Positions 26,917-56,791 of a DNA stretch of 64,000 nt are shown here, piece after piece. The stretch's first letter is position 1. Each line of letters opens with the position of its first letter. The notes below the pieces were generated by a model. The model did not search any database and had not been told where the DNA came from. It worked only from the letters and a program-made list of their open reading frames with translations. This DNA is from Streptomyces sp. 6-11-2 (GTDB lineage: Bacteria; Actinomycetota; Actinomycetes; Streptomycetales; Streptomycetaceae): NCBI RefSeq assembly GCF_006540305.1, contig NZ_BJOR01000001.1:5394001-5458000 (forward strand). Reading direction: 5' to 3'. Position numbers and translations under genes: made by a program.

Positions 26917-27492
26917 TCAGAACAGCGGCTCGGGCAGCACGCCTTCCAGCGCGAGCAGCCTGCGCTTGACCTCCAGGCCGCCGCCGAAGCCGCCGATGCC
27001 CCCGTCGCTCTCGACGACCCGGTGACACGGCACGACCACCGGCAGCGGATTGGCGCCCATCGCCGCGCCCACCGCCTGGGCGGCACCCGGCTGCCCCACC
27101 CGGTCGGCCAGATCGCCGTACCCGACGACCGTGCCGTACGGCACGCCCGACGCCAGTTCGCGCAGCACCTGCCGGTTGAAGCCCGAGATCAGAGACCAGT
27201 CCAGCGGCAGCTCGAAGTCCTGCCGCTCGCCCGCGAAGTACGCCCGCACCTGGCGTATCGCCTCCGCGAGCAGCGGGGAGTCGGGCGCCTCGACCGGCTC
27301 GGTGCCCAGCCGGGACGCCAGCCGGTCCAGCGCGCGCTCCCGTATCGCGTCAGTGGCGTGGAAGACGACGTTGACCAGGCCCTCGGGGGTCGCGGCCAGC
27401 AGCAGGGGGCCGATGCCGGTACCGACGACGGCCCACACGACCCGCTGCTCGTCCGGTACGAACCGATGCTCGTCCTGCTCGTGGTTGTCCAT
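26917..27492 (-). CDS. ogt: Methylated-DNA--protein-cysteine methyltransferase
   Basis: This suicide enzyme transfers alkyl groups from O6-alkylguanine or O4-alkylthymine in DNA to its own Cys. The 191-residue protein has the PCHRV active-site motif with Cys156, a helix-turn-helix-like GVPYGTVVGYGDLA (117-130) with the intercalating Arg region, and the GxGGFGGGLEVKRRLLxLE tail. A damage-type promoter motif (27499-27521 on the minus strand) ends 6 nt before the ATG. This predicts a leaderless, damage-induced transcript. The gene is upstream of the glycerophosphodiesterase gene on the same strand region but transcribed away from it. Confidence 0.95.
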   Translation of the reverse strand: MDNHEQDEHRFVPDEQRVVWAVVGTGIGPLLLAATPEGLVNVVFHATDAIRERALDRLASRLGTEPVEAPDSPLLAEAIRQVRAYFAGERQDFELPLDWSLISGFNRQVLRELASGVPYGTVVGYGDLADRVGQPGAAQAVGAAMGANPLPVVVPCHRVVESDGGIGGFGGGLEVKRRLLALEGVLPEPLF

Positions 27493-27498
27493 GCGATT

Positions 27499-27521
27499 AC
27501 GGTACGGCCCGCCACTGACAA
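27499..27521 (-). promoter_or_regulatory. PafBC-type (RecA-independent) damage promoter of ogt
   Basis: On the minus strand TTGTCAGTG is followed by 8 nt and then TACCGT, which fits tTGTCRgtg-N8-TAnnnT. The -10 box ends 6 nt before the ATG at 27492. Confidence 0.85.
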
Positions 27522-29636: not shown

Positions 29637-29659
29637 TTGTCAGTGGCGGGTCGTACGGT
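29637..29659 (+). promoter_or_regulatory. PafBC-type damage promoter of uvrB
   Basis: TTGTCAGTG (29637-29645), 8 nt, TACGGT (29654-29659). The -10 box ends 7 nt before the ATG at 29667 and no Shine-Dalgarno is present, so a leaderless mRNA is predicted. Confidence 0.88.
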
Positions 29660-29666
29660 GGATGTC

Positions 29667-31832
29667 ATGCGGCCCGTCTCTCACATCGAACGCACGGTGG
29701 CGCCCTTCGAGGTCGTCAGTCCCTACCAGCCCAGCGGCGACCAGCCGCAGGCCATCGCCGAACTCGCCCAGCGCATCGAGGCGGGGGAGCCGGACGTCGT
29801 CCTGCTCGGCGCCACCGGCACCGGAAAATCCGCCACCACGGCGTGGATGATCGAGAAGCTGCAGCGACCGACCCTCGTCATGGCGCCGAACAAGACGCTC
29901 GCCGCCCAGCTGGCCAACGAGTTCCGCGAACTGCTGCCGAACAACGCGGTCGAATACTTCGTCTCGTACTACGACTACTACCAGCCCGAGGCCTACGTCC
30001 CGCAGTCGGACACCTACATCGAGAAGGACTCCTCGATCAACGAGGAGGTCGAGCGCCTGCGCCACTCGGCGACCAACTCACTGCTCACCCGTCGCGACGT
30101 CGTCGTGGTCGCCTCCGTCTCCTGCATCTACGGCCTGGGCACCCCGCAGGAGTACGTGGACCGCATGGTGCCCCTCCGGATCGGCGATGAGATCGACCGT
30201 GACGAGCTGCTGCGCCGCTTCGTGGACATCCAGTACACGCGCAACGACATGGCGTTCACCCGCGGCACCTTCCGGGTGCGCGGCGACACCATCGAGATCT
30301 TCCCGGTCTACGAGGAGCTGGCCGTCCGTATCGAGATGTTCGGCGACGAGATCGAGGCGCTGTCGACCCTGCACCCCCTCACCGGCGAGATCATCAGCGA
30401 CGACCAGCAGCTGTACGTCTTCCCGGCCTCGCACTACATCGCCGGTCCCGAGCGCATGGAGCGGGCGGTCAGGGGCATCGAGAAGGAGCTCGAGGAGCGC
30501 CTGGCCGAGCTGGAGAAGCAGGGCAAGCTGCTGGAGGCCCAGCGACTGCGGATGCGCACCACCTACGACATCGAGATGCTCCGCCAGATCGGCACCTGCT
30601 CCGGCGTGGAGAACTACTCGATGCACTTCGACGACCGCGCGCCCGGCACCCCGCCCAACACCCTGCTCGACTACTTCCCGGACGACTTCCTGCTCGTCAT
30701 CGACGAGTCGCACGTCACCGTGCCCCAGATCGGCGCGATGTACGAGGGCGACGCCTCCCGCAAGCGCACCCTCGTCGAGCACGGCTTCCGGCTGCCGTCC
30801 GCCCTGGACAACCGCCCGCTGAAGTGGGAGGAGTTCCAGAAGCGCATCGGACAGACGGTGTACCTGTCGGCGACGCCGGGCAAGTACGAGCTGTCCCGCT
30901 CGGACGGGCAGGTCGAGCAGATCATCCGCCCCACCGGCCTGGTCGACCCGCAGGTCGTCGTCAAGCCCACCGAGGGCCAGATCGACGACCTGGTGCACGA
31001 GATCCGCGGGCGCGTGGAGAAGGACGAGCGTGTCCTGGTCACCACGCTGACCAAGAAGATGGCCGAGGACCTGACGGACTACTTCCTGGAACTCGGCATC
31101 CAGGTGCGCTACCTGCACAGCGATGTCGACACCCTGCGCCGGATCGAGTTGCTGCGCGAGCTGCGCAGCGGCGAGTTCGACGTCCTGGTCGGCATCAACC
31201 TGCTGCGCGAGGGCCTCGACCTGCCCGAGGTGTCACTGGTGGCGATCCTCGACGCCGACAAGGAGGGCTTCCTGCGCTCGGGCACCTCACTGATCCAGAC
31301 CATCGGCCGCGCGGCGCGCAACGTCTCCGGCCAGGTCCACATGTACGCCGACAAGATCACCCCGGCGATGGAGAAGGCCATCGAGGAGACCAACCGCCGC
31401 CGGGAGAAGCAGATCGCGTACAACAAGGCGAAAGGCATCGACCCGCAGCCGCTGCGCAAGAAGATCAACGACATCGTCGCGCAGATCGCCCGCGAGGAGG
31501 TCGACACCGAGCAGCTGCTCGGCTCCGGGTACCGCAAGGGGAAGGAGGGCAAGGGCGCGAAGACCCCCGTGCCGTCCCGCGGCGAGAACGGCGCCAAGGC
31601 CGCCGGTGCCGCAAAGCCGGCCAAATCCGCCAAGTCCGCCAAGGGCAAGGCGAAGGAGACGGTGCCCACCGACCGTCCCGCCGCCGAACTCGCCGAGCAG
31701 ATCGAGGAGATGACGGAGCGGATGCGCGCCGCCGCCGCCGACCTCCAGTTCGAGGTCGCGGCCCGGTTGCGCGACGAGGTCGCGGAGATGAAGAAGGAAC
31801 TGCGTCAGATGCGCGAGGCGGGGCTGTCCTGA
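29667..31832 (+). CDS. uvrB: UvrABC system protein B
   Basis: UvrB verifies DNA lesions and recruits UvrC in nucleotide-excision repair. The 721-residue protein has Walker A GATGTGKS (48-55), the lesion-probing beta-hairpin around [17 protein letters not shown] (about 104-120), helicase motifs DESH and QTIGRAARN, and a C-terminal UVR domain (about 672-710). A basic Ala/Lys/Ser linker with repeated AKSAK units (about 620-665) makes it longer than E. coli UvrB. ATG 29667 is chosen because the damage promoter ends 7 nt upstream; the frame is open to 29526, inside the MHYT gene. Confidence 0.97.
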
Positions 31833-31964
31833 CCGACTGCGCTGTGTTGCAAGACCGACACAAAGTGCGGACCCGTGTGCGGCGGAGCCACTGCCGCTGC
31901 GTAGGGTTCTTGGCAGCCGCGGTACCGGCGGCGACAGGGGCGTAGCTCGAGAGGGGAATCAGCC

Positions 31965-32543
31965 GTGACCGTCAACTTGACCAAGGGTCAGGCCATCAGT
32001 CTGCAGAAGAACGACGGGGGCAGCCTGACCGCGGTCCGTATGGGTCTCGGCTGGCAGGCGGCTCCGCGCCGGGGCCTGTTCGGCTCGCGCACGCGCGAGA
32101 TCGACCTCGACGCCTCCGCCGTGCTCTTCGCCGAGAAGCAGCCGGTCGACGTCGTCTTCTTCCGCCACCTGGTGAGCGACGACGGCTCCGTGCGCCACAC
32201 CGGCGACAACCTGGTCGGCGGCGCGGGGCAGGGCGGCGACGACGAGTCGATCCTCGTCGACCTCCAGCGCGTCCCGGTCCACATCGACCAGATCGTCTTC
32301 ACCGTGAACTCCTTCACGGGCCAGACCTTCCAGGAGGTGCAGAACGCGTTCTGCCGCCTGGTCGACGAGACCAACGGCCAGGAGCTCGCCCGCTACACCC
32401 TCGCCGGCGGTGGCAACTACACCGCCCAGATCATGGCGAAGGTGCACCGCGTGAACGGCGCCTGGACGATGACGGCCCTCGGCGCCCCCGCCAACGGCCG
32501 CACCTTCCAGGACCTGATGCCGACGATCCTGCCGCACCTGTAG
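31965..32543 (+). CDS. TerD family protein
   Basis: This 192-residue protein of the TerD/CABP family begins VNLTKGQAISL, as these proteins do. It has the acidic, Gly-rich calcium-site region HTGDNLVGGAGQGGDDESI (about 74-92) followed by FTVNSFTGQTFQEVQNAFCRLVD. TerD proteins bind Ca2+ and are tied to tellurite, phage and envelope stress. The opening is less acidic than classical TerD. GTG 31965 has GAGAGGGGA upstream, and a TAGGGT box lies at 31901. A TerD-fusion gene, TerC and a Ca2+ antiporter follow. Confidence 0.9.
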   Translation: MTVNLTKGQAISLQKNDGGSLTAVRMGLGWQAAPRRGLFGSRTREIDLDASAVLFAEKQPVDVVFFRHLVSDDGSVRHTGDNLVGGAGQGGDDESILVDLQRVPVHIDQIVFTVNSFTGQTFQEVQNAFCRLVDETNGQELARYTLAGGGNYTAQIMAKVHRVNGAWTMTALGAPANGRTFQDLMPTILPHL

Positions 32544-32615
32544 AACGGCCCGAACGGTTCGGATTGTCCGGACGGTCGGCGGGCGACAGCACATGACACC
32601 AGGGGGACGAAGGCG

Positions 32616-34712
32616 ATGACGGCCGAGCTGGTGCGGGGGCAGAACCACCCGCTCTCCGAGGTCCGCCTGGAGATCCGGATCTCGGCCGGCTGTCCGGTCG
32701 TGGCTGCGGCCACGCTCAGCGACGACAGCGGCAGGGCGCGGGGCGCCGAGTGGGTGGTGCACCCCGGCGCTCCCGTCCTGCCCGGTCTGGAGGTCTCGCG
32801 CCAGGCAGCCGCCGACCACCGGCTCGCCGTCGACCTGGGTGCCATACCCGAGGCGGTGCACCGCGTCGACGTGCTGCTGGCCCTGCCCGCCGCGAGTGGG
32901 GGCCCGACCCGGTTCGGCGCGGTCGCCGCCCCCTTCGTCGCGGTCACCGGCCCGGACGGCACCGAACTCGCCAGCTATACGATCACCGGCCTGGACGCCG
33001 AGTCCGCCGTGATCGCGATGGAGCTGTACCGCCGCCAGGACTCCTGGAAAGTGCGCGCCGTCGGCCAGGGCTACGCGGGCGGCCTCACCGAACTTCTCAG
33101 TGACCTGGGGCTGACCCAGGCCGCTGAACTGGCCACCGCCACCGAGGAGGCGGTGGCCGAGGGACTGGCCCGCTCGGTGGCGGCACCCCCGCCCCGCACG
33201 ACGGATGAAGCCCGTTCCCACCAGGCCTCCGCGCCGCCCGGGCCGAACCCCGCTGCTTCCGTTTCCTCCCACGAGGGTTCTTCCCACGAGGGACAGGTCT
33301 CCGGGACCGCCGGGCCCTCGGCGCCGCAGTCCGCGGGCCCAGGAGGATCCGGAGGCGGGACCCCCGCGGCCGGACCAACGACATCGGTGCCCGCGGGCGG
33401 AACCATCGACTACCGGCACCCGCGGCGACAGCCCGCACCCCCGCCCGGACAGCCCGCACAGCCCGCACCCCCGTCCGTACAGCCCGCACCCCCGCCCCGG
33501 CAGCCTTCGGCCCCGTCCGGACAGCCCGCGGCGCCACCGGCCGCACCGGCCGCGAGTCCCGGCCACGCCGGGCAGCCCGCGCGGCCCGTCGCGGGGGACG
33601 CGACCGGGTGGTCGATGGAGGAGCGGCTCTACAACCAGGTCTGGGGGATGTTCGAGGACCTGGCCCGCACCACGGCCGCCTACCGCAGTGCCGTCGACTT
33701 CGCCGAGTCGCGCATGGAGAAGGAGCTGGACCAGGTCCTGTCCGACCCGCGCAGCCGCATCGGCGGTCAGGGCGATGCCGCCCGGGAGGCGGCCCGTGCC
33801 AAGCACGCGCGGCTCGTCGACCAGGCCAGGGCGTCGCTCGACAGAGACCTGGCCCAGCTCACCGACGAGTCCGAGGTCGTCGAGCCGGCCCTGCCGGCGG
33901 CGTACGCCCGCTGGGACAACCCGGTCTGGCACGGCTACCGCGTGCCGATGGAGATCCCCATGGCGGTACGCCTCGGCGATCTCCACCTGCCCGAGGACCC
34001 GTCCCTGCGCATCCCCATGCTGATCCGGCTGCCGCTGGAGCGCGGCCTGTGGATCGACAGCGGCCGCTGGGCGTCCCCCGACGAAACCTTCGCGGACGCG
34101 GGCGAACGGCGCCGCCTGGCGATGGAGGCGGCCGTGGCGCACGCGGCCCGGCTGATCGCCGTCTACCCGGCGGGCGAGTTCGGCGTCCACGTCATCGACC
34201 CGGCCGGATCCGGAGCGCAGGCACTCGCGCCCCTGGTGCACACGGGCGTGCTCGCGGGGCCGCCCGCGGCCGGCGCTGCCGGGGTCGCCGATGTCCTGAG
34301 CCGGCTCACCCAGCGGGTCGACCTGGTGCAGATGGCCGTGCGCGGGGGCGCGCCGGACGCGCTGCCGCCCGGCTTCGACGCCGCCGAACAGCTGCTGATC
34401 GTCAACGACTTCCCGCACGGATTCGACGACCGCGCCGTGACCCAGTTGCGCTACCTCGCCGACGAGGGCCCGGCCGTGGGTGTCCACCTGATGATGGTCG
34501 CCGACCGCGAGGACGCCGCCGCCTACGGCCCGTTGCTCGACCCGCTGTGGCGTTCGCTGATGCGACTGACCCCGGTGCCCGACGACCACCTCGCCGACCC
34601 CTGGGTCGGACACGCCTGGACGTACGAGCCGCCGGTGGTGCCGCCGGGCAGCCAGGTGCTCCAACTGGTGCTCACCGAGGTCGCGGCGGCCCGGCGCGAC
34701 GGGAGCCGTTGA
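32616..34712 (+). CDS. TerD domain fused to an FtsK/HerA-like degenerate ATPase domain
   Basis: This 698-residue protein has an N-terminal TerD-like domain (about 1-165) and a disordered Pro/Gln/Ala linker (about 190-328) with repeated QPAPP units. The C-terminal region, about 330-698, begins with a helical segment (SMEERLYNQVWGMFED). From about 440 it runs EIPMAVRLGDLHLPEDPS, RIPMLIRLPLERGLWID, FGVHVIDPAG, LLIVNDFP and GVHLMMVADR. These line up in order with strands of FtsK/HerA-type ATPases I know from Ter-system operons. The Walker A GKS/T expected after LWID is absent, so ATP hydrolysis is unlikely. It is probably co-transcribed with the upstream TerD gene. Confidence 0.75.
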   Translation: MTAELVRGQNHPLSEVRLEIRISAGCPVVAAATLSDDSGRARGAEWVVHPGAPVLPGLEVSRQAAADHRLAVDLGAIPEAVHRVDVLLALPAASGGPTRFGAVAAPFVAVTGPDGTELASYTITGLDAESAVIAMELYRRQDSWKVRAVGQGYAGGLTELLSDLGLTQAAELATATEEAVAEGLARSVAAPPPRTTDEARSHQASAPPGPNPAASVSSHEGSSHEGQVSGTAGPSAPQSAGPGGSGGGTPAAGPTTSVPAGGTIDYRHPRRQPAPPPGQPAQPAPPSVQPAPPPRQPSAPSGQPAAPPAAPAASPGHAGQPARPVAGDATGWSMEERLYNQVWGMFEDLARTTAAYRSAVDFAESRMEKELDQVLSDPRSRIGGQGDAAREAARAKHARLVDQARASLDRDLAQLTDESEVVEPALPAAYARWDNPVWHGYRVPMEIPMAVRLGDLHLPEDPSLRIPMLIRLPLERGLWIDSGRWASPDETFADAGERRRLAMEAAVAHAARLIAVYPAGEFGVHVIDPAGSGAQALAPLVHTGVLAGPPAAGAAGVADVLSRLTQRVDLVQMAVRGGAPDALPPGFDAAEQLLIVNDFPHGFDDRAVTQLRYLADEGPAVGVHLMMVADREDAAAYGPLLDPLWRSLMRLTPVPDDHLADPWVGHAWTYEPPVVPPGSQVLQLVLTEVAAARRDGSR

Positions 34713-34794
34713 GCGGTCCCGACCGGGGCCTCGGTCGCCTCAGTCGTCGCGACTGGAACCGCTGAGCCCGGGTACACGCCCCGCACCACCCCTT

Positions 34795-34867
34795 CCCAAG
34801 GAATAGTAAATCCCTCTGACCTGCAACTTTGATCTTTTCTTTGCCTTGCTCTTTACCATTCCTTGGG
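34795..34867. promoter_or_regulatory. 16-bp inverted repeat flanking an AT-rich pyrimidine tract upstream of terC
   Basis: CCCAAGGAATAGTAAA (34795-34810) is the inverted repeat of TTTACCATTCCTTGGG (34852-34867), with one mismatch. The 41-bp interval is T/C-rich (for example GATCTTTTCTTTGCC) and far less GC-rich than its surroundings. The right arm ends 21 nt before the terC start. It could be an mRNA hairpin or a two-site operator. Confidence 0.7.
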
Positions 34868-34888
34868 GTTCGGGTACCGTTTTGTCCT

Positions 34889-35908
34889 GTGAATGTCTCG
34901 TTGTCCCTGTGGGTCCTGACCATCATCGGCCTGGCCGCCCTGATCGCCGTCGACTTCTTCATCGGCCGCAAACCCCATGACGTGTCGATCAAGGAAGCCG
35001 GGATCTGGACGGCCGTCTGGGTCGTCCTGGCCGGTCTCTTCGGGCTCGGTCTGCTCGTCTTCGGCGGCGGCCGCCCAGCCGGCGAGTTCTTCGCCGGCTT
35101 CATCACCGAGAAGTCGCTGAGCGTCGACAACCTCTTCGTCTTCGTCCTGATCATGGCCAAGTTCGCCGTGCCGTCGCAGTACCAGCGACGGGTGCTGATG
35201 ATCGGCGTCCTCATAGCCCTGGTGCTGCGGGCCGGCTTCATCGCCGCCGGAGCCGCGATCATCGCGAGCTTCTCGTGGGTGTTCTTCCTCTTCGGCGCCT
35301 TCCTGATCTGGACCGCCTGGAAGCTCATCAAGGAGGCCCGCTCCGGCGGGGACGAGGAAGAGGACTTCGAGGAGAACAAGCTGCTCAAGGCCGCCGAGCG
35401 CCGCTTCGGCGTGGCCGACCGCTACCACGGCACCCGGCTGTGGATCCGGCAGAACGGCAAGCGGGTGATGACGCCGATGCTGGTCGTGATGCTCGCGATC
35501 GGCACCACCGACATCCTGTTCGCCCTCGACTCCATCCCCGCGATCTTCGGCCTCACCCAGGACCCGTACATCGTCTTCACCGCCAACGCCTTCGCGCTGA
35601 TGGGCCTCCGGCAGTTGTACTTCCTGATAGGCGGCCTGCTCAAGAAGCTGGTCCACCTGTCCTACGGCCTGTCGGTGATCCTCGGCTTCATCGGCGTCAA
35701 GCTGGTGCTGCACGCGCTGCACGAGTCCGGCGTGCATGTCCCCGAGATCAGCATCCCGGTCTCCCTCGGTGTGATCTGCGCGGTTCTGGCCGTCACCACC
35801 GTCACCAGCCTGCTGGCCGCCCGGAAGCAGGCCGCGAAGGAGGTGCGGGAGACGGAGGCACGGGAGGCGGGCCACGAGGACGCGGCGAAGGACCGGGTCG
35901 ATGCGTGA
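34889..35908 (+). CDS. TerC family integral membrane protein
   Basis: This 339-residue membrane protein has about eight helices. Both TerC signature regions are present: EKSLSVDNLFVFVLIM (about 71-86) and the partner TTDILFALDSIPAIFG (about 207-222), whose acidic residues are thought to move metal ions, chiefly Mn2+. A charged cytoplasmic loop GGDEEEDFEENK separates the halves, and the C-terminus is charged. GTG 34889 is chosen from family alignment; no clear Shine-Dalgarno precedes it. With TerD and the Ca2+ antiporter it suggests a metal-homeostasis group. Confidence 0.93.
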   Translation: MNVSLSLWVLTIIGLAALIAVDFFIGRKPHDVSIKEAGIWTAVWVVLAGLFGLGLLVFGGGRPAGEFFAGFITEKSLSVDNLFVFVLIMAKFAVPSQYQRRVLMIGVLIALVLRAGFIAAGAAIIASFSWVFFLFGAFLIWTAWKLIKEARSGGDEEEDFEENKLLKAAERRFGVADRYHGTRLWIRQNGKRVMTPMLVVMLAIGTTDILFALDSIPAIFGLTQDPYIVFTANAFALMGLRQLYFLIGGLLKKLVHLSYGLSVILGFIGVKLVLHALHESGVHVPEISIPVSLGVICAVLAVTTVTSLLAARKQAAKEVRETEAREAGHEDAAKDRVDA

Positions 35909-35978
35909 GCGTGAGCGGGAGCACACCCGGCCCCTCATCGCGCATGCGATCGTTCCGGGACTCTGCGACGATCGCAGC

Positions 35979-37079
35979 ATGATCACGCGGCTCAGGGGAC
36001 TCTTGACGGCGTGGACGATCATCGTGCCGGTTCTCGCGGTCGTCCTGCTGATCCTCACCTGGGGGCGGTCCCTGCCCGGCGCGGTCGTCGGCGTGGTCAC
36101 CCTGGTCCTCGCCGGCTCGGTCCTGGCCGCGGTGCACCACGCGGAGGTGGTCGCCCACCGGGTCGGAGAACCCTTCGGCTCCCTGGTCCTCGCGATCGCC
36201 GTCACCGTCATCGAGGTCGCGCTCATCGTGACCTTGATGGCGGACGGCGGCGACAAGTCCTCGACGCTCGCCAGGGACACGGTGTTCGCGGCCGTGATGA
36301 TCACCTGCAACGGCGTGGTCGGACTCAGTCTGCTGGTCGGCTCCCTGCGTCACGGCACGGCCGTCTTCAACGCCGAGGGCACCGGCGCCGCGCTCGCCAC
36401 CGTGGCGACCCTGGCCACGCTCAGCCTGGTCCTCCCGACGTTCACCACCACCCAGCCGGGACCGCAGTTCTCCGGAGTCCAGCTCACCTTCGCCGCGATC
36501 TCCTCACTCGTCCTGTACGGCCTGTTCGTGACCACCCAGACCGTGCGGCACCGCGACTACTTCCTGCCGATCACCCGGCAGGGCGAGGTGATCACCTCCG
36601 AGGACCACGCGGCGGCGCCGTCCACCCGCACCGCCTGGATCAGCGTGGGACTGCTGGGCCTGGCCCTGGTCGGCGTGGTCGGACTGGCCAAGGGCGTGTC
36701 GCCCACCGTCGAGTCAGCGGTGGAGTCCGCAGGTCTGCACCACGCGGTCGTCGGAGTGATCATCGCCCTGCTCGTGCTGCTGCCCGAGACCATCGCCGCG
36801 CTGCGCTCCGCCCGGCGCGACCGGGTGCAGACCAGCCTCAACCTCGCTCTGGGATCCGCGATGGCCAGCATCGGCCTGACCATCCCGGCCGTCGCGCTGG
36901 CGTCGCTGTGGCTGTCCGGGCCGCTCGTCCTCGGCCTCGGTCCCACTCACATGCTGCTGCTCCTGCTCACCGTGGTGGTCAGTTCGCTGACCGTGGTGCC
37001 GGGACGGGCCACGCCGCTCCAGGGCGGTGTCCATCTGGTGATCTTCGCGGCCTATCTGGAGCTGGCGATCAACCCCTAG
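35979..37079 (+). CDS. chaA: Ca2+:cation (ChaA-like) antiporter
   Basis: This 366-residue protein of the CaCA family has about eleven helices. The first alpha-repeat has [21 protein letters not shown] (about 65-85) and the second has [35 protein letters not shown] (about 269-303). The acidic residue and Asn/Ser groups of the transport site are kept in both. It exchanges Ca2+ or Na+ for protons across the membrane. ATG 35979 is 71 nt after the terC stop, in the same direction. Confidence 0.9.
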
Positions 37080-37159
37080 GCGAACCGGCGTGCCGTGATA
37101 GACCGGCTCCGAACGGCGGTCGCCCATCGGCCGCGTCGGACGAACGGACCGGAGGAACC

Positions 37160-37636
37160 GTGCCCCGCACCCTGGCCAACGCCCCGATCATGATTCTCAA
37201 CGGCCCCAACCTGAACCTGCTCGGGCAGCGGCAGCCGGAGATCTACGGCTCCGACACGCTCGCGGACGTCGAGGCACTGTGCGCCAAGGCGGCCGCGGCG
37301 CACGGCGGCACGGTCGACTTCCGCCAGTCCAACCACGAGGGCGAACTGGTCGACTGGATCCACGAGGCCCGGCTGAACCACTGCGGAATCGTCATCAACC
37401 CCGCCGCCTACTCGCACACCTCCGTCGCCCTCCTCGACGCGCTCAACACCTGCGACGGGATGCCGGTGGTGGAGGTGCACATCTCCAACATCCATCAGCG
37501 CGAGCAGTTCCGGCACCACTCCTACGTCTCCCTGCGCGCCGACGGCGTCATCGCCGGGTGCGGAGTGCAGGGCTACGCGTTCGCGGTGGAGCGGGTCGCG
37601 GCACTGGCCGGCGCACAGCGGGCGGCCGACGCGTAG
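37160..37636 (+). CDS. aroQ: Type II 3-dehydroquinate dehydratase
   Basis: AroQ dehydrates 3-dehydroquinate to 3-dehydroshikimate in the shikimate pathway. The 158-residue protein fits the dodecameric type II family. It has [18 protein letters not shown] (13-30) with catalytic Tyr29 and the flexible-loop Arg24, NPAAYSHTS (80-88) with Asn80, and [11 protein letters not shown] (105-115) with catalytic His107. GTG 37160 has GGAGGAA right before it. It stands alone with respect to other aro genes. Confidence 0.96.
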
Positions 37637-37873
37637 CCGCCCGCGGCGCGTGGCCGGGGCCGCCGGTCGAGGGCGGGACAGAGGACCGGCGGCCCGTACC
37701 GCGCGGGAGCCGTCTTCCCACGCGGGGCTGCCCCCAGTCGACTGCGCGACGACGCGGAGGGGGAGCGGGTGCGTGCCACCGCTGTGTGCGCGGGGTGCAC
37801 ACGGGGTGCGCGGGGTGCACAGGCGGAGAGCGGCGTGCGGCCGTACGCCGCCCGTTCACCACCCACCGCCCGT

Positions 37874-38530
37874 TCACCAGCCGCGCGCGTGCCACTCCGG
37901 CAGATGCGGGCGCTCGGCGCCCAGCGTGGTGTCGTTGCCGTGGCCCGGGTAGACCCAGGTCTCGTCCGGGAGGACGTCGAAGATCTTCGTCTCCACGTCG
38001 TGGATCAGGCCGGCGAACGCCTTCGGGTCCTTGCGGGTGTTGCCCACCCCGCCGGGGAAGAGGCAGTCGCCCGTGAACACGTGCGGATGCCCGTGCGGGT
38101 CGTCGTAGACCAGCGCGATCGAGCCGGGGGTGTGGCCGACGAGGTGGCGCGCGGTGAGTTCCACCTGCCCCACCCGCACGGTGTCCCCGTCGCCCACGAG
38201 GACGTCGGTCGGCACCGGGATGCCCTCGGCGTCGTCCCGTCCCGCGTACGTACGCGCGCGCGTGGCCGTCACGACCTCCGCCAGCGCCTGCCAGTGGTCG
38301 GCGTGCCGGTGGGTGGTGACGACGGAGGCGATGCCGTCGTCACCGATCATGCCGAGCAGCGTGTGCGCGTCGTTCGCCGCGTCGATCAGCAGTTGCTCGT
38401 CCGTGGCCCGGCAGCGCAGCAGATAGGCGTTGTTGTCCATCGGGCCGACCGCGATCTTGGTGATCATCAGGTCCTTCAGCTCGTGCACGTCCGCCGGGCC
38501 GCCGACCTTCACCTCTCCGCTGTACGTCAT
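37874..38530 (-). CDS. MBL-fold metallo-hydrolase (glyoxalase II-like)
   Basis: This 218-residue metallo-beta-lactamase-fold enzyme has the metal-binding THRHADHW motif (73-80), then GHTPGSIALVYDD and FTGDCLF with the bridging Asp, and a final YPGHGNDTTLG. This set fits hydroxyacylglutathione hydrolase-like enzymes; in a mycothiol-using genus the thiol ester would probably be of mycothiol. The neighbouring gene encodes a mycothiol-dependent-type enzyme, which supports that reading. The substrate is inferred only. Confidence 0.87.
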   Translation of the reverse strand: MTYSGEVKVGGPADVHELKDLMITKIAVGPMDNNAYLLRCRATDEQLLIDAANDAHTLLGMIGDDGIASVVTTHRHADHWQALAEVVTATRARTYAGRDDAEGIPVPTDVLVGDGDTVRVGQVELTARHLVGHTPGSIALVYDDPHGHPHVFTGDCLFPGGVGNTRKDPKAFAGLIHDVETKIFDVLPDETWVYPGHGNDTTLGAERPHLPEWHARGW

Positions 38531-38578
38531 GGCCGTCAGCCTATAGCGGGGGCAGCCGCCCGGGGACCGCGCACGCGG

Positions 38579-39265
38579 CTACAGCGGCGGCAGTGCCGGG
38601 AGCGAGCCGCCCGCCACCGTCAGGGCGGATCCGTCGCGGCGCCCCGCGAGCCAGCCGAGCAGGTCCGCCCGGCCCCCCGTGACGGTGACCGCGGGCTCCT
38701 CCGCCTCCCGGCCCGTGTCCCACGCGTGCGTGCCGTCCGTCAGCCGGGCCGGCGGCACGTCCGGGTGCCCGGAGAACCGCTGGGCCAGGAACTCGATCTC
38801 CCGCTCGACGAACTCCGCCGGCAGGTCCTCGAGCTCGTGGCCGATGCCGAGGTCCACGTGGTGCAGTTCGACCTCCACCCAGCGCCGGAAGGGCACCCGG
38901 GACGCGGAGTCGGTGACGCCGTTGCGCAGCTCCACGGTCCGCGACCAGTCCGCGGGCTCGGCCGCCGTCCGCTGGAAGCGGGCCGCGGTGTCGCGCACGT
39001 CGGTGACCTGGACGTCGAGGGGGCGCGGGGCGTCGCGCTCGATGTCGGCGTCCCGGGTCTCGGCGGACGCGTACATGGGACGGCCCTCGAAAACGTTCAC
39101 CAGCGCGTCCGCGTTGCGGGCGAGATGGGCCAGGATGTGGCCCCGGGTCCAGCCGGGCAGTCGTGACTGGTCGGTCACAGCCGCGTTGTCCAGCTTGCCG
39201 ACAGCGGTCAGCAGTCGTTCGGTTGCGTCCTGCACAGACGCCAGGTCGCGCGCGTGATCAATCAT
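38579..39265 (-). CDS. Maleylpyruvate isomerase-family mycothiol-dependent enzyme
   Basis: This 228-residue DinB/MDMPI-fold protein has the N-terminal helix bundle signature LPGWTRGHILAHLARNADALVN (about 37-58), supplying metal-site His residues. WVEVELHHVDLG near 130 supplies another. The C-terminal 70 residues form the small domain seen in mycothiol-dependent maleylpyruvate isomerases. The actual substrate is unknown, since many paralogues exist per genome. ATG 39265 is used; the frame is open to 39364. It diverges from uvrA. Confidence 0.82.
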   Translation of the reverse strand: MIDHARDLASVQDATERLLTAVGKLDNAAVTDQSRLPGWTRGHILAHLARNADALVNVFEGRPMYASAETRDADIERDAPRPLDVQVTDVRDTAARFQRTAAEPADWSRTVELRNGVTDSASRVPFRRWVEVELHHVDLGIGHELEDLPAEFVEREIEFLAQRFSGHPDVPPARLTDGTHAWDTGREAEEPAVTVTGGRADLLGWLAGRRDGSALTVAGGSLPALPPL

Positions 39266-39420
39266 GACGCCGACCCTAGTCGCGCCACACGTTCGGGTGA
39301 AGGCGGTGAAGGACGGCCGTAAATCGAATGTACGTGCTATAAGGTCGGATGCGGCATCGGGCATGCTGGAGAGCCGGGGATTGTTGTGTATCCGGGCGCA
39401 TCCGGGAATCCCGCCCGGCG

Positions 39421-39443
39421 TTGTCAGTGGCTCCCCCTAGTCT
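39421..39443 (+). promoter_or_regulatory. PafBC-type damage promoter of uvrA
   Basis: TTGTCAGTG (39421-39429), 8 nt, TAGTCT (39438-39443), matching tTGTCRgtg-N8-TAnnnT. Transcription would start near 39450, giving a leader of about 50 nt with an AAGAAAGG ribosome site. Confidence 0.87.
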
Positions 39444-39499
39444 GAGAAAGCACGGGGGCCCCGCCCCTGTCACTTCTCTCAAGAAAGGTGCGGACCGGC

Positions 39500-42520
<3,021 letters not shown>

Positions 42521-42536
42521 GACACAGTCCGGCCAC

Positions 42537-42566
42537 AGCGCCCCGCGGGCACTCCTGCGGGGCGCT
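42537..42566. terminator. Bidirectional terminator after uvrA
   Basis: AGCGCCCCGC and GCGGGGCGCT pair perfectly around a 10-nt loop. The hairpin lies between uvrA and the convergent kinase gene. Confidence 0.85.
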
Positions 42567-42581
42567 GCTGGCACCGGAGGC

Positions 42582-43493
42582 CTACGGCGCGCCCACCTCC
42601 GCCGCGTACGGCGGCTCCGCTCCCGCGCGCGAGCAGGTGATCGCGGCCGCGCGGGCCGCGAACCGCAGCAGCCGGCTCCAGCCCGAGGCCCCGAGGCCCG
42701 CGAGGCCCTCGGGGGAGAGGGCGTCCTGCACGGCCAGTCCGTGCAGCAGGGCCGCGTTCACGGTGTCGCCCGCGCCGATGGTGTCGACGACGTCGACCTT
42801 CTCGCCCGGAACGGAGTGCTCCGCGCCGTCCCGGGTGTACGCGGTGAGCCCGTCGCCGCCGTGGGTGATCACCACCGCCCCGGGCCCGGCGGCCAACCAC
42901 TCGCGCGGAGTGCCGCCCAGCCACCCCGCGTCCTCCTCGGAGAGCTTCAGCAGCGACACCGAGGGCAGCCAGCTCATGAAACGCGCCCGGTAGGCGTCAG
43001 CGTCCGCGATCAGTCCGGGCCGGACGTTCGGGTCCAGCGCGGTGAACACACCCTGCGCGGAAGCCGTCCGCATCAGCTCCTCGTAGGCGGTCGCGCCCGG
43101 CTCCAGCACCAGCGAACAGGTGCCGAAGGACACCGCGCGGGTTCCGGCGGGAAGGGCGGCGGGCGCCGTGAACAGACGGTCGGCGGTGCCGTCGACGTAG
43201 AACGAGTACGCGGCGGAGCCGTCGGTGCCGACCGTGGCGACCGCCAGCGTCGTCGGCTCGGCGCCGCGCTGCACACCGGACACGTCCACCCCGGCACCCC
43301 GCAGCCCGTCGAGCAGGGCCTCGCCGAAGGCGTCGTACGACGTGCGGGAGCAGAACGCCGTGGGCGAGCCGAGGCGGCCCAGCGCGACGGCCGTGTTGTA
43401 CGGGCCGCCGCCGAGCGCCGGTCTGAGGTCCGCGAGGGCGCCCCTTCCCCGCGGTACCAGGTCGATCAGGGCCTCACCGGCGACGACGATCAC
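42582..43493 (-). CDS. PfkB-family sugar kinase (fructokinase-like)
   Basis: This 303-residue ribokinase-fold enzyme has the N-terminal GEALIDLVPR motif, the GGGPYNTAVALGRLG glycine motif (about 28-42) and the C-terminal DTIGAGDTVNAAL with the catalytic Asp. The GEALIDL/GGGPYN combination is typical of fructokinase-like members, but 2-keto-3-deoxygluconate and other substrates are possible. It is a single gene with its own hairpin downstream, not in a sugar operon. Confidence 0.87.
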   Translation of the reverse strand: MIVVAGEALIDLVPRGRGALADLRPALGGGPYNTAVALGRLGSPTAFCSRTSYDAFGEALLDGLRGAGVDVSGVQRGAEPTTLAVATVGTDGSAAYSFYVDGTADRLFTAPAALPAGTRAVSFGTCSLVLEPGATAYEELMRTASAQGVFTALDPNVRPGLIADADAYRARFMSWLPSVSLLKLSEEDAGWLGGTPREWLAAGPGAVVITHGGDGLTAYTRDGAEHSVPGEKVDVVDTIGAGDTVNAALLHGLAVQDALSPEGLAGLGASGWSRLLRFAARAAAITCSRAGAEPPYAAEVGAP

Positions 43494-43663
43494 GAGTCGG
43501 TTCCTCTCTCGGACAGCTCGGGCCGGGAAGCTATCCCATTGCGCGCCGGAGGTACAACGCCGGCCCGGGTCGTCCGCGTCCGTCCGTCCGACCCGCCCCC
43601 GTCCGGTCCGGGCCCGGTGGGTATCGTCGGCGTTGTCCAGCCCCTTGACCAGTGGAGGCCTTC

Positions 43664-44092
43664 ATGTCCGGCCGCCCCTCCGCGAGCCGCCGCACGATCC
43701 TGCGGGGAGCGGCCCTCACCCCCGCCGTCGCGCTCGGGCTCACTGCCTGCGGACCGATCGGCGGCGGCGTCACGACCCCCGCCACGCCCACCGCGCCGGT
43801 CGACCTCGGCGCCGAGAGCGAGGTCCCCGAGGGTGGCGCCAAGCTGTACCGGGACCACAACGTGGTGGTCAGCCGGGGCGCGGACGGCACCCTCAAGGCG
43901 TTCAGCACGATCTGCACGCATGCGCAGTGCCCGATCAACAAGCTCCAGGGGACGAAGCTGATCTGCCCCTGCCACGGCAGCGAGTTCGACGCCACGACCG
44001 GCGAGGTGGTGCGCTCCCCGGCAAGCACGCCGCTGCCCGAACTGCCCGTGCGCGCCGAGGGCGGCAGGCTCGTCGCCGGACCCGGGGCCTGA
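43664..44092 (+). CDS. Tat-exported lipoprotein Rieske [2Fe-2S] protein
   Basis: This 142-residue protein has a twin-arginine signal (SRRTILRG at 8-15) ending in a lipobox LTAC with Cys29, so it should be anchored outside the membrane. The Rieske domain has CTHAQC (C84, H86, C89) and CPCHGSEFD (C101, C103, H104). C84, H86, C101 and H104 ligate the cluster, and C89/C103 can form the stabilising disulfide of high-potential Rieske centres. It is a single-domain form, not the three-helix QcrA. GGAGG lies 5 nt before ATG 43664. The redox partner is unknown. Confidence 0.92.
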   Translation: MSGRPSASRRTILRGAALTPAVALGLTACGPIGGGVTTPATPTAPVDLGAESEVPEGGAKLYRDHNVVVSRGADGTLKAFSTICTHAQCPINKLQGTKLICPCHGSEFDATTGEVVRSPASTPLPELPVRAEGGRLVAGPGA

Positions 44093-44116
44093 CATCCGGC
44101 CGCCGGTCCGGCCCGC

Positions 44117-45064
44117 TCACTCCCAGTCCCAGCCGACCCCCACGGTCCCCGACCGCACGCGCGGCTCCACGAGGTGCACCGAACGGTGCCGCTCGCTCAC
44201 CGGCAGCTCCCGGCGGCCGCTGCGCGGAGCCGCCGCCGACGCCTGAGTGAACCGGTGGCAGCGCACCGGCAGGGTGCCGGCGTCGAACCGGACCTGGAGG
44301 GCGTACTGGCCGCCGGCGGAGGGGAACTCCCGGACGTACTCGCGCGTCGTCCCGGCCGTTCCGTCCTCCACGCCGTGCCGGAACAGGAACGTGTCGCCGG
44401 CCCGCAGCCGGGTGTCGAAGAGCAGCTCGGCCACCAGCACCCCGGTGTCGTGGTGCCGGCGTATCCGGCCGGTGCGGCAGTTCTCCAGGGCCCGCACGGT
44501 CATCCGCTCCGGCGCGCAGCCCGGATCGCCGTGATGGACGGCCACGAAACGGTCCACGCCGTCCCGGTGGGCGCGCACGATGTGCTCGGACTCGCGGCCC
44601 GCGAGTTCGCGCCGCGCCCCGATCAGCACCCGCTCGTGGTGCCCGAGCACGTGCAGCCCGCCGCCGGGTGGGCAGTCCAGTTCCGCCAGCAGCCCGCGCA
44701 GCACGTCCGAGGCCCGGACCAGGGAGCGGTAGGAGCGGACGCCGGGCCGCCCGCCGGCCGTGTGCTCGTCGGCGTCGGCCAGCAGCCGGATCAGCGACTC
44801 GTCCGGCAACCGCAGAATCTCCTCCAGCGCCCGTACGGCCCGCAGTGACTCCGGGCGCTGCGGGCGCCGGGCACCCTGCTGCCAGTAGCTGAGGCTGGTG
44901 ACGCCGACCTTCACCCCGTAGCGCGTCAGATGGTGCTGCACGCGCTGCAACGGCAGTCCACGAGCGGCGATCGCGGCGCGCAGCGCCACGTGGAAGGGGC
45001 CGCCCCGCAGGACCGTGTCCAGTTCCGCGGTGGCGACGTCCGCCTGCTGTGGGGCGTGCGGCAT
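44117..45064 (-). CDS. XRE-type helix-turn-helix protein
   Basis: This 315-residue protein has a helix-turn-helix at about 25-75 (RGLPLQRVQHHLTRYGVKVGVTSLSYWQQGARRPQRPES). About 190 residues of an unrecognised beta-rich domain follow, with many His/Arg, the segment RIRRHHDTGVLVAELLFDTRLRAGDT, and a C-terminal WDWE. It is probably a one-component regulator with a ligand-binding domain. ATG 45064 has AGAAAGG upstream; the frame is open to 45211. It diverges from uvrC across 275 bp. Confidence 0.75.
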   Translation of the reverse strand: MPHAPQQADVATAELDTVLRGGPFHVALRAAIAARGLPLQRVQHHLTRYGVKVGVTSLSYWQQGARRPQRPESLRAVRALEEILRLPDESLIRLLADADEHTAGGRPGVRSYRSLVRASDVLRGLLAELDCPPGGGLHVLGHHERVLIGARRELAGRESEHIVRAHRDGVDRFVAVHHGDPGCAPERMTVRALENCRTGRIRRHHDTGVLVAELLFDTRLRAGDTFLFRHGVEDGTAGTTREYVREFPSAGGQYALQVRFDAGTLPVRCHRFTQASAAAPRSGRRELPVSERHRSVHLVEPRVRSGTVGVGWDWE

Positions 45065-45310
45065 GCGCGGGCCTTTCTGTGAAGGTGCGGGCGGCTCGGC
45101 GGACCCTTCACGCGGGTCGTCGGGGCCGCCCCGCGCGAAGGCAGGGTTCTTCACATCCGTACGCCGTCGTTCACGGCCCCGAGTTCCAACGCATTGAAGC
45201 GTGTTGACCAAGTCCCGACAACACCTGAGACCCGACAGGAGTGAGCTCCTGGCCGAGGAAGCAGCCCCGGCCGGGGCGCGTCGCGGCCCGGGTCGTGGAG
45301 GGCCGCCGCG

Positions 45311-45333
45311 GTGTCGGTGCTCGACAGTAGGGT
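45311..45333 (+). promoter_or_regulatory. Probable PafBC-type damage promoter of uvrC
   Basis: GTGTCGGTG (45311-45319), 8 nt, TAGGGT (45328-45333). This fits TGTCRgtg-N8-TAnnnT, with R as G and the leading t absent. The -10 box ends 6 nt before the ATG at 45340, so the mRNA would be leaderless. Confidence 0.65.
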
Positions 45334-45339
45334 TGAGTC

Positions 45340-47484
45340 ATGGCCGACCCCTCCAGCTACCGCCCCAAGCCGGGAGACGTCCCGGACTCCCCCGGGGTCT
45401 ACCGGTTCCGTGACGAGTACCGCCGGGTCATCTACGTCGGAAAGGCCAAGAGCCTGCGCCAGCGCCTGGCGAACTACTTCCAGGACCTCGCGAACCTTCA
45501 CCCGCGCACCCGCAGCATGGTCACCACGGCCGCGTCCGTGGAGTGGACGGTGGTGTCCACGGAGGTCGAGGCGCTGCAGCTGGAGTACTCCTGGATCAAG
45601 GAGTTCGACCCCCGGTTCAACGTCAAGTACCGCGACGACAAGAGCTACCCGTACCTCGCGGTGACGATGAACGAGGAGTTCCCACGCGTGCAGGTGATGC
45701 GCGGCCACAAGAAGAAGGGCGTGCGCTACTTCGGGCCGTACGGGCACGCGTGGGCCATCCGCGACACGGTCGACCTGCTGCTGCGCGTCTTCCCGGTGCG
45801 CACCTGCTCGGCCGGTGTCTTCAAGAACGCCGCCCGCACCGGCCGCCCTTGCCTGCTGGGCTACATCGGCAAGTGCTCCGCGCCCTGCGTCGGTCGTGTC
45901 TCCGCCGAGGAGCACCGTGAACTGGCCGAGGACTTCAGCGACTTCATGGCCGGCCGCACCGGCACGTATCTGCGCCGCCTGGAGAAGCAGATGACGGAGG
46001 CGGCCGAGGAGATGGAGTACGAGCGGGCCGCCCGCCTGCGCGACGACATCGAGGCCCTGAAGAAGGCCATGGAGAAGAACGCGGTCGTGCTCGCCGACGC
46101 GACCGACGCCGACCTCATCGCCGTCGCCGAGGACGAGCTGGAGGCCGCGGTGCAGATCTTCCACGTGCGCGGCGGACGGGTGCGCGGCCAGCGCGGCTGG
46201 GTGACCGACAAGGTGGAGGACGTCACCACCGGCGCCCTCGTCGAGCACGCCCTGCAGCAGCTGTACGGCGAGGAGAGCGGGGACGCCGTGCCCAAGGAGG
46301 TCCTCGTCCCGGCCCTGCCCGACCCGGTCGAACCGGTCCAGGAGTGGCTCGCCGAGCGCCGCGGGTCGAACGTCTCGCTGCGCATCCCGCAGCGCGGCGA
46401 CAAGAAGGCCCTCATGGAGACCGTGCAGCGCAACGCCCAGCAGGGGCTCGTCCTGCACAAGACCAGGCGCGCCTCCGACCTCACCACGCGCTCGCGTGCC
46501 CTGGAGGAGATCGCCGAGGCCCTCGACCTCGACAGCGCCCCCCTCAGGATCGAGTGCTACGACATCTCCCACCTCCAGGGCGACGACGTGGTGGCCTCCA
46601 TGGTCGTCTTCGAGGACGGCCTCCAGCGCAAGAGCGAGTACCGCCGCTTCCAGATCAAGGGCCGTGCCGGAGACACGCAGCTGTGGCACGGCGAGGGCCA
46701 GGACGACGTCCGCTCCATGCACGAGGTGATCACCCGCCGCTTCAGGCGCTACCTCGCGGAGAAGGAGAAGACCGGCGAGTGGGCCGACGGCGAGGACGTC
46801 CTGGTGAACGGCTCACCCGGTGGCTCCCTCGACGGCTCGCCCGACGACGCACCCGGCGGCCCCGTCGTTGCCCTCACCGAGGACGACGGCCGTCCCAAGC
46901 GCTTCGCCTACCCGCCCCAGCTCGTCGTCGTCGACGGCGGGCAGCCCCAGGTCGCGGCCGCCCAGCGGGCCCTGGACGAACTCGGCATCGACGACATCGC
47001 CGTGTGCGGACTGGCCAAGCGCCTGGAGGAGGTCTGGCTGCCCGGCGACGACGACCCGGTGGTCCTGCCCCGCAGCAGCGAGGGCCTGTACCTGCTGCAA
47101 CGCGTGCGCGACGAGGCCCACCGGTTCGCCATCACCTACCAGCGCACCAGACGGGCCAAGCGCTTCCGGGCCGGGCCCCTGGACGACGTGCCCGGCCTCG
47201 GCGAGACACGCAAACAGGCGCTGATCAAGCATTTCGGCTCGGTGAAGCGGCTGCGGTCCGCGACAATCGACCAGATCTGCGGGGTACCCGGTATAGGCCG
47301 CAAGACGGCCGAGACCATCGCCGCGGCACTCGCCCAGGCGGCCCCGGCCGCACCCGCCGTCAACACGGCGACTGGAGAGATCATGGAAGACGTGGAAGAA
47401 GCGCCACCGGCGACGACGGCGGGTGACGCGGAGACGCCCGTGTCCACGGGCGTTCCGGACGACCGACGGGGGCAGGAGACATGA
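45340..47484 (+). CDS. uvrC: UvrABC system protein C
   Basis: UvrC makes both incisions around a UvrB-marked lesion. The 714-residue protein has the N-terminal GIY-YIG nuclease (GVY 19-21, YVG 32-34, R40), a UVR domain near 208-242 and an RNase H-like nuclease domain with [12 protein letters not shown] and VVDGGQPQ. The C-terminal tandem helix-hairpin-helix includes [14 protein letters not shown] Gly/Ser/Pro/Asp insertion (about 489-514) sits inside the RNase H-like domain, and a 45-residue acidic tail follows the HhH. Its stop overlaps the rapZ start as ATGA. Confidence 0.97.
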
Positions 47485-55451: not shown

Positions 55452-55474
55452 TTGTCAGTGGTGCCCTCTACGGT
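55452..55474 (+). promoter_or_regulatory. PafBC-type damage promoter of the MFS gene
   Basis: TTGTCAGTG (55452-55460), 8 nt, TACGGT (55469-55474), fitting tTGTCRgtg-N8-TAnnnT. The leader to ATG 55511 is about 30 nt and carries GGAGGGG. Confidence 0.85.
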
Positions 55475-55510: not shown

Positions 55511-56791
55511 ATGACGGGGATCGAGGCCGGGTGCGAAGCCGTCGACGCGGGTGCGCCGGCGTGGCGCGGCGGATTCGGACGGCTGTGGAGCGCCGCCGTG
55601 CTGTCCAGCTTCGGCGACGCGCTGCGTACGGCCGCGCTGCCGCTGCTCGCCCTGTCCCTGACCGACGACCCGCTGCTCATCGCCTCCGTCACGGCCTGCG
55701 GCTATCTCCCCTGGATCGTCTTCGGGCTGCTCGGCGGCGCCGTCGCGGACCGTGTGGACCAGCGGCGTGCGATGTGGGCGGCGGACACGGTACGGGGCCT
55801 CCTGGTCGGCGGCTTCGCCCTGGCGGTGGCCCTCGGACACGCCTCGATCGGCCTGCTGATCGCCCTGGCCTTCGCGCTGACCACGCTCCAGACACTCTTC
55901 GACAACGCAGCCACGGCCCTGTTGCCCGCCCTGGTGGAGTCCGAGGCGCTGGGCAGCGCCAACGCCCGTCTGATGACCGGGCAGCGCCTCGCGGGCGGGC
56001 TGCTGGGCGGCCCGGTCGTGCCCCTGCTGTTCGCGGCGGGGGCCGCCGCGCCCTTCGCGGCCGACGCCGTCACCTTCCTGGTGGCCGCCGCTCTCGTGGC
56101 CTCCCTGCGGGTCCCGGCGCCCGAGCGCGGGCCGAGACCGGCGGGCAGCACGCTGCGGCGGGAGATAACCGAGGGGCTGCGCGCCCTCGGGCGGGACAGG
56201 GCCCTGCGCGGGCTGTGCGCCGCCACCGCCCTGTGCAACGTCGGGATGGGCGCGCTCATCGCCACCCTGGTGGTCGTCGTGACCGGCTGGCTGGGCGCGG
56301 GCACCAAGGGATACGCGGCGGCCCTGACGGCGTACACGCTCGGCAGCCTGGCCGGGGGAGCGGTCAACCGGCGGATCGTGGCCCGGCTCGGGCGGATGCG
56401 GGCCGTGGTGCTGGCCGGCGGGGTGCAGATCGCCGCGCTGGTGGTCCTGGGACTGGTGCCCAGCCTGGCCTTCGCGGTGGCCGCACTGGCCGTGTTCGGG
56501 CTGATGGGCATGGTGTGGAACGTCAACACGACGACACTGATGCAGCAGCGCAGCCCCGCCGGGATGCTGGGCCGGGTCAGCGCGGCCTTCCGCACTCTCG
56601 CGGTGGCCGGGGCGCCGCTGGGCGCGGTGCTCGGCGGGGCCGTCGCGGCCGTGTGGGGGCCGAACTGGCCGGCGCTGCTCACGGCCGCGTTCTTCGTGCT
56701 TTCCGTGGCCGCGCTGATACCCGCGCGCCGTGCCGACGTACTCGTTGTTACGCCGGACGACGGCGTGACGACGACTCATGTCTCCCGCTGA
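55511..56791 (+). CDS. MFS transporter
   Basis: This 426-residue major facilitator has about twelve hydrophobic helices. The loop 2-3 motif GGAVADRVDQRRAM (about 76-89) is the A-motif of drug-exporting families. Gly-rich helices FGLMGMVWNVNTTTLMQQRSPAGMLGRVSAAFRT (about 330-363) resemble the enterobactin/macrolide exporter (EntS/MefA-like) group. The substrate is unknown. Its promoter carries a DNA-damage motif, which is the strongest clue: it may export a damaging metabolite or drug. Confidence 0.87.
   Translation: MTGIEAGCEAVDAGAPAWRGGFGRLWSAAVLSSFGDALRTAALPLLALSLTDDPLLIASVTACGYLPWIVFGLLGGAVADRVDQRRAMWAADTVRGLLVGGFALAVALGHASIGLLIALAFALTTLQTLFDNAATALLPALVESEALGSANARLMTGQRLAGGLLGGPVVPLLFAAGAAAPFAADAVTFLVAAALVASLRVPAPERGPRPAGSTLRREITEGLRALGRDRALRGLCAATALCNVGMGALIATLVVVVTGWLGAGTKGYAAALTAYTLGSLAGGAVNRRIVARLGRMRAVVLAGGVQIAALVVLGLVPSLAFAVAALAVFGLMGMVWNVNTTTLMQQRSPAGMLGRVSAAFRTLAVAGAPLGAVLGGAVAAVWGPNWPALLTAAFFVLSVAALIPARRADVLVVTPDDGVTTTHVSR

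Follow-up and report, generated by a model that had tools for sequence, protein, structure and literature searches.

PafBC-type promoter boxes ahead of uvrB, uvrA and other repair genes of Streptomyces, many of them with predicted leaderless starts

Do the repair genes uvrA, uvrB and uvrC of Streptomyces share a DNA-damage promoter that acts without RecA? The question was raised by a stretch of 64,000 nucleotides (nt) from Streptomyces sp. 6-11-2 (contig NZ_BJOR01000001.1, positions 5,394,001 to 5,458,000; hereafter the window), in which the original prediction had placed a box of the PafBC-dependent type upstream of each of the three genes. The three boxes were confirmed in the sequence at the predicted places (table 1), and all of them fit the exact pattern TGTCRGTG-N8-TANNNT. 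We infer, with a probability of roughly 0.8, that such boxes are promoters through which PafBC, independently of RecA, switches on a repair regulon of Streptomyces upon DNA damage. This reading is well supported because the motif, the genes that follow it, its conservation at uvrB, uvrA and an ogt-like gene, and a pafBC pair in a Pup-proteasome locus all point to it.

That the boxes are unlikely to have arisen by chance, as had been claimed, was borne out by the counts. The exact pattern occurred five times in the window and not once across 100 dinucleotide shuffles; the genome-wide scan that had been proposed gave 47 boxes in 8.73 Mb (three contigs), against none for the pattern read backward, and 31 Streptomyces genomes contained 19–73 boxes each (median 48), or 1476 in total versus 17 reversed-pattern matches. 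These counts rule out a chance origin. Two of the five boxes in the window, upstream of the ogt-like gene and of an MFS transporter gene, had been overlooked. The presence of 5 of the 47 boxes within 64 kb amounts to a cluster (Poisson P about 3e-5, for a window that was not picked blindly). The description of the three uvr genes as unlinked had to be given up, since all of them lie on one strand in one cluster within 18 kb; in several other families, too, uvrA, uvrB and uvrC are near each other on one contig (e.g., G018:C361).

Table 1. Boxes and genes in the window (positions are those of the window)
Feature	Position	Strand	Remarks
PafBC-type box of ogt-like gene	27499..27521 (exact pattern 27499-27520)	-	TTGTCAGTG-N8-TACCGT; -10 ends 6 nt before ATG
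ogt-like O6-methylguanine-DNA methyltransferase gene	26917..27492	-	Pfam PF01035, PF02870; NCBIfam TIGR00589
PafBC-type box of uvrB	29637..29659	+	TTGTCAGTG-N8-TACGGT; -10 ends 7 nt before ATG; predicted leaderless
uvrB	29667..31832	+	Pfam; NCBIfam NF003673, TIGR00631
SOS-like box TCGAATGTACGTGC	39324..39337	+	98 nt upstream of uvrA PafBC-type box, between uvrA and the divergent gene
PafBC-type box of uvrA	39421..39443	+	TTGTCAGTG-N8-TAGTCT; leader about 50 nt, Shine-Dalgarno-like AAAGGTG
uvrA	39500..42520	+	Pfam UvrA_inter, UvrA_DNA-bind (translated from 39488)
PafBC-type box of uvrC	45311..45333	+	GTGTCGGTG-N8-TAGGGT, leading T absent; -10 ends 6 nt before ATG; predicted leaderless
uvrC	45340..47484	+	Pfam; NCBIfam NF001824
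PafBC-type box of MFS transporter gene	55452..55474 (exact pattern 55453-55474)	+	leader about 30 nt
MFS transporter gene	55511..56791	+	Pfam MFS_1

Conservation was followed through one scan with the exchanger gene that lies between uvrB and uvrA, which gave 80 named loci, 78 of them labelled Streptomyces. In 69 of the 80 loci, some of which are truncated at a contig end, uvrB and its promoter were no more than 10 kb from the exchanger gene. Only sequences that reached the gene in question and had 100 nt or more before it were counted, the window among them. In these, the box was exact at uvrB in 70 of 70, at uvrA in 71 of 72 and at the ogt-like gene in 67 of 70, and the GTG start of uvrA at 39500 was conserved in the 71 sequences having the exact box. 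uvrC was found within only 8 of the exchanger-gene sequences, 3 of them with the exact box. Judged by box conservation, uvrB and uvrA are firm members of the set in Streptomyces and uvrC is a weak one. Across the class, boxes were present in 277 of 296 genomes.

The gene downstream of each of the 47 boxes was taken, and 45 were scanned with Pfam (L050 and L051 were left out, and L003 was scanned in the second frame only). By simple count, at least 19 of the 47 boxes preceded replication or repair genes. These were recA, uvrA, uvrB, uvrC, ogt, two UvrD-type helicases, xseA, a RadA-like gene, an HhH-GPD glycosylase, dnaX, dnaE, an AlkZ-like glycosylase, a RecD2-like helicase, a PD-(D/E)XK nuclease, ruvC, an MgsA/RarA-like ATPase and two uracil-DNA glycosylases. 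The box of recA (L005, G000:C1:1725398-1728419) occupies locus positions 1501-1522 on the minus strand, with the SOS-like sequence TCGAACATCTATTC 114 nt upstream of it. Because the remaining genes are mixed, including three MFS-type transporters, a sigma factor of the extracytoplasmic function (ECF) type, PNPase, a glycosyl transferase, a transposase-like gene and genes without a Pfam match, some boxes may be chance matches or serve other ends.

Some of these loci are worth recording in their own right. At recA the start codon is ambiguous, because both an in-frame GTG (7 nt) and an ATG (43 nt) follow the -10. The ECF-type sigma factor gene (L010, G000:C1:2629797-2632818) encodes an NTF2-like domain and might form a damage-response relay. 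Boxes ahead of an IS605 OrfB/Cas12f-like transposase gene (L049) and of an IrrE-type (M78) peptidase gene with a low G+C content at third codon positions (L023) possibly mark damage-responsive mobile elements. A box gene of 160 amino acids (L002) that weakly matched the model of the DarG antitoxin may be a homologue of SCO6735.

The putative regulator is encoded in the same genome. The overlapping genes pafB (342 amino acids) and pafC (374 amino acids) occupy C1:5782448-5784581. They lie downstream of two proteasome-subunit genes and of two genes of the Pup-ligase family, which gene order marks as Dop- and PafA-like, and they are followed by tatC. PafC carries HTH_PafC, WYL and WCX domains and matched the solved PafC (7p5x) and PafBC (6sj9) chains, and PafB matched the partner chains. 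PafC was found in all 31 Streptomyces genomes (E <= 7.1e-167) and, with one query sequence, in 223 of the 296 class genomes at E <= 1e-40; of the 73 without a match, 20 were named. In Mycobacterium smegmatis, PafBC was reported to bind the same motif and to control UvrABC (PMC8223512, PMC6789036). Single-stranded DNA has been described as the trigger of PafBC (PMC11804915). By analogy with mycobacteria, on which the steps of activation, PafBC binding and damage induction are modelled, single-stranded DNA arising from damage would be bound by the WYL domains of a PafB–PafC dimer. The dimer would then bring polymerase carrying the housekeeping sigma factor to promoters that have TGTCRGTG in place of the normal -35 and TANNNT as their -10. 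Transcription of uvrB, uvrC and ogt would begin at or beside the start codon, giving leaderless mRNA. The uvrA transcript would have a leader of about 50 nt, and LexA-type control from farther upstream would be a second input to this gene.

The same boxes might be read by a damage-responsive alternative sigma factor of the ECF type rather than by PafBC with the housekeeping sigma factor. The sigma factor gene at L010 stands behind a box and could control itself, and in S. lividans two sigma-factor genes have been described whose promoters have 12-nt spacers, one of them suggested to control repair genes (PMC6742748). We consider this very unlikely, considering that the -10 is of the TANNNT type, as for the housekeeping sigma factor, that PafBC of M. 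smegmatis binds the same motif, and that the boxes extend through most of the class.

Several observations weigh against a PafBC-dependent regulon. An initial search published in 2022 found that the M. smegmatis PafBC motif was apparently not conserved in S. venezuelae (PMC9380542). About half of the 47 box genes had no evident repair role. Across the class, the box was exact at uvrB in 12 of 30 genomes, at uvrA in 8 of 30 and at uvrC in 3 of 29 (17, 12 and 4, respectively, with up to one mismatch; for uvrC, locus L264, whose match begins at residue 124, was left out). The PafC census did not separate genomes with boxes from those without, and box-bearing genomes such as G081 (5 boxes) and G101 (6) fell below the PafC threshold, perhaps as an effect of that threshold. 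Within Streptomyces, the uvrC box was exact in only 11 of 30 genomes (30 of the 31 sampled, G321 having no uvrC locus).

The dependence of uvrC on PafBC is the weakest step of the explanation, and the original prediction overstated its box. uvrC may not be a working PafBC target at all, and may be served by an ordinary housekeeping leaderless promoter whose upstream part fits the box by coincidence in this strain. TAGGGT stands six or seven nt before the ATG in all 30 Streptomyces genomes, yet only 11 of them have the exact box; class-wide, 25 of 29 genomes had a TANNNT located 5-10 nt ahead of an in-frame start, against 3 of 29 with the exact box. On the other hand, TGTC at the correct spacing (TGTC-N12-TANNNT) is retained in 29 of 30 Streptomyces genomes, and UvrABC is listed in the PafBC regulon of M. 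smegmatis, with uvrC among the genes under both PafBC and SOS control (PMC8223512). A purely housekeeping promoter at uvrC is therefore a possibility to be taken seriously, if one that we somewhat doubt. From 250 nt before the uvrC box to 58 nt after it, no SOS-like site reached 8 of 10 positions. In 5 of the 30 genomes (L135, L155, L156, L158, and L160), though not in the window, the uvrC promoter was immediately preceded by TTGTCCACA, which we take to resemble a DnaA box.

The original prediction saw no LexA box at any of the three genes, and this was contradicted at uvrA. The SOS-like box there (table 1) agrees with TCGAAC-N4-GTTC at 8 of 10 positions, a score that is not significant alone (0.28 such sites expected per 300 nt), but its position is unchanged in 67 of the 72 sequences, one of which is the window. 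In S. venezuelae, uvrA was reported to have a LexA peak in chromatin immunoprecipitation sequencing, and LexA to bind its SOS box in vitro (PMC9380542). Because of this conserved box and the published binding, uvrA is probably controlled by both LexA and PafBC, and in mycobacteria recA, uvrA and uvrC have been placed under both PafBC and SOS control (PMC8223512). One could go further and suppose that LexA alone governs the damage induction of uvrA in Streptomyces and that the PafBC-type boxes are relics. The constancy of the SOS-like box and the LexA binding in S. venezuelae agree with this. However, the PafBC-type box of uvrA is still more constant (71 of 72), no conserved SOS-like site was found when uvrB and ogt were searched for one (the single 8-of-10 site at uvrB, at 29686, lies within the coding region and was read as chance), and M. 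tuberculosis treated with mitomycin was reported to overproduce UvrA without RecA (PMC8151990). We thus regard control by LexA alone as very improbable and retain joint control by LexA and PafBC as the probable reading. Divergent from uvrA is a gene with an MDMPI/DinB-type fold (38579-39265, minus strand), and the SOS-like box in the common interval could serve either gene. Two additional UvrA-like matches were present in the genome, at C1:7454774-7457638 and 355510-357471, with 68% and 50% identity to the UvrA of the window.

A further feature of uvrB, uvrC and ogt, overlooked in the original prediction, was their predicted leaderless layout. With the last T of the -10 set at -7, the predicted start fell on the A of the ATG for uvrC and ogt and one nt before the ATG for uvrB. 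In the genome as a whole, 29 of the 47 boxes had a start codon in a coding-like frame 5-10 nt past the -10, compared with 0-8 in each of nine other bins, so that these 29 boxes are predicted from their spacing to place the transcript start at the start codon. By the same measure, none of 26 SigR-like sites of this genome did so (Fisher P 3e-8); the SigR-like pattern was one that we assumed, and some of its 26 sites may be chance matches, the reversed pattern giving 4. A coding start 5-10 nt on was present at 52 of all 449 TA(A/C/G)NNT sequences in 444 kb and at 1 of 13 sites of TGNTANNNT. Housekeeping promoters of the TTGAC type could not serve as an internal control, since none of the four spacings gave more than one match in the 444 kb. 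The proportion of 29 in 47 also exceeded, at P 1.7e-9, a level of 21%, which is the reported share of mapped leaderless starts in S. coelicolor (PMC4895711); about 20% was reported for S. lividans (PMC6742748).

A cruder measure, an RTG 5-9 nt past the -10, is expected by chance at about 12% at this base composition and counts boxes with two RTG twice. By this measure, 958 of the 1476 boxes of the 31 Streptomyces genomes (65%) were of the leaderless type. Seven other families of the 41 sampled ranged over 41-72% in a comparison made at this one spacing, namely f4 (299/475), f28 (91/131), f31 (68/95), f22 (207/292), f15 (187/323), f16 (105/222), and f17 (383/936, or 309/474 without four genomes with very many boxes). 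Those four (G135, G153, G171, and G214) had 63-198 boxes, only 14-21 of them of the leaderless type, and this excess of boxes with few leaderless ones suggests that a repeated element carries the box there. Of 30 genomes across the class, 26 likewise had TANNNT 5-10 nt ahead of an in-frame start at uvrB, and 2 of 30 had it at uvrA. Since uvrC keeps this arrangement although most of the class lacks its box, a leaderless layout at these genes may predate the box or be independent of it. We put forward, tentatively and with less than even confidence, that the RecA-independent damage regulon of actinomycetes would run largely on leaderless mRNAs, its PafBC-type boxes starting polymerase at the start codon in about 40-70% of cases according to family (Streptomyces being at 65%), a rate two to three times that of the genome at large, with Streptomyces having the full regulon. 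No link between PafBC and leaderless transcripts was found in the open-access literature searched.

The core of the observation is already known, and the explanation largely so, because the motif was predicted in S. coelicolor in 2008, uvrB included. It has been traced to the UV-inducible recA promoter of S. rimosus (Ahel 2002, as cited in PMC2375139), and the 2008 motif search, which applied SIGffRid to S. coelicolor and S. avermitilis, assigned it to 67 genes of S. coelicolor, with uvrB, ung, radA and dnaE among them (PMC2375139). This TGTCAGT-type motif is the same as ours, in the same genus and with a repair group; the work predates PafBC, and the available text names neither uvrA, uvrC nor ogt and mentions no leaderless starts. 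The original prediction is supported in part: the motif, the gene content, the conservation at uvrB, uvrA and ogt and the pafBC locus speak for a RecA-independent promoter, whereas the prediction erred on linkage and on LexA at uvrA and was overstated for uvrC.

Other known systems are comparable in part. The mycobacterial PafBC regulon, with its RecA-NDp promoters, shares the motif and spacing, a pafBC pair in the Pup-proteasome locus and repair-rich targets (recA, uvrA, uvrB, uvrC, and ruvC), some of which also have an SOS box; induction and PafBC binding were demonstrated there and are predicted here, and more than 150 genes are reported under PafBC control in M. smegmatis (PMC8223512), versus 47 exact boxes here. 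The macrodomain gene SCO6735 of S. coelicolor likewise belongs to Streptomyces, has a RecA-NDp promoter and is expressed more strongly after UV, although it is a single gene and its accounts, as available, mention no PafBC dependence (PMC5087735, PMC9411070). The LexA/SOS regulon of S. venezuelae overlaps at uvrA and recA, the latter having an SOS-like sequence here as well, but its repressor is released through RecA and its motif is different (PMC9380542).

What is added is, first, that in contrast to the 2022 suggestion, each of the 31 sampled Streptomyces genomes (a sample in which S. venezuelae was not singled out by name) has the motif in abundance and linked to repair, and second, the predicted leaderless bias of the boxes relative to SigR-like sites. 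A RecA/LexA-independent damage response in Streptomyces was left open in 2022, in part since the motif seemed to be missing (PMC9380542); because the motif is abundant and repair-linked in every genome sampled, this question becomes directly testable through pafBC. A regulon of this kind would also be relevant to the slow induction of the SOS response that was described in Streptomyces (PMC9380542). If confirmed by 5' ends, the leaderless bias would connect the way damage controls transcription with a special mode of translation. On the tentative reading given above, damage sensing would be tied to translation that needs no Shine-Dalgarno leader, and repair enzymes could still be made while ordinary initiation is impaired.

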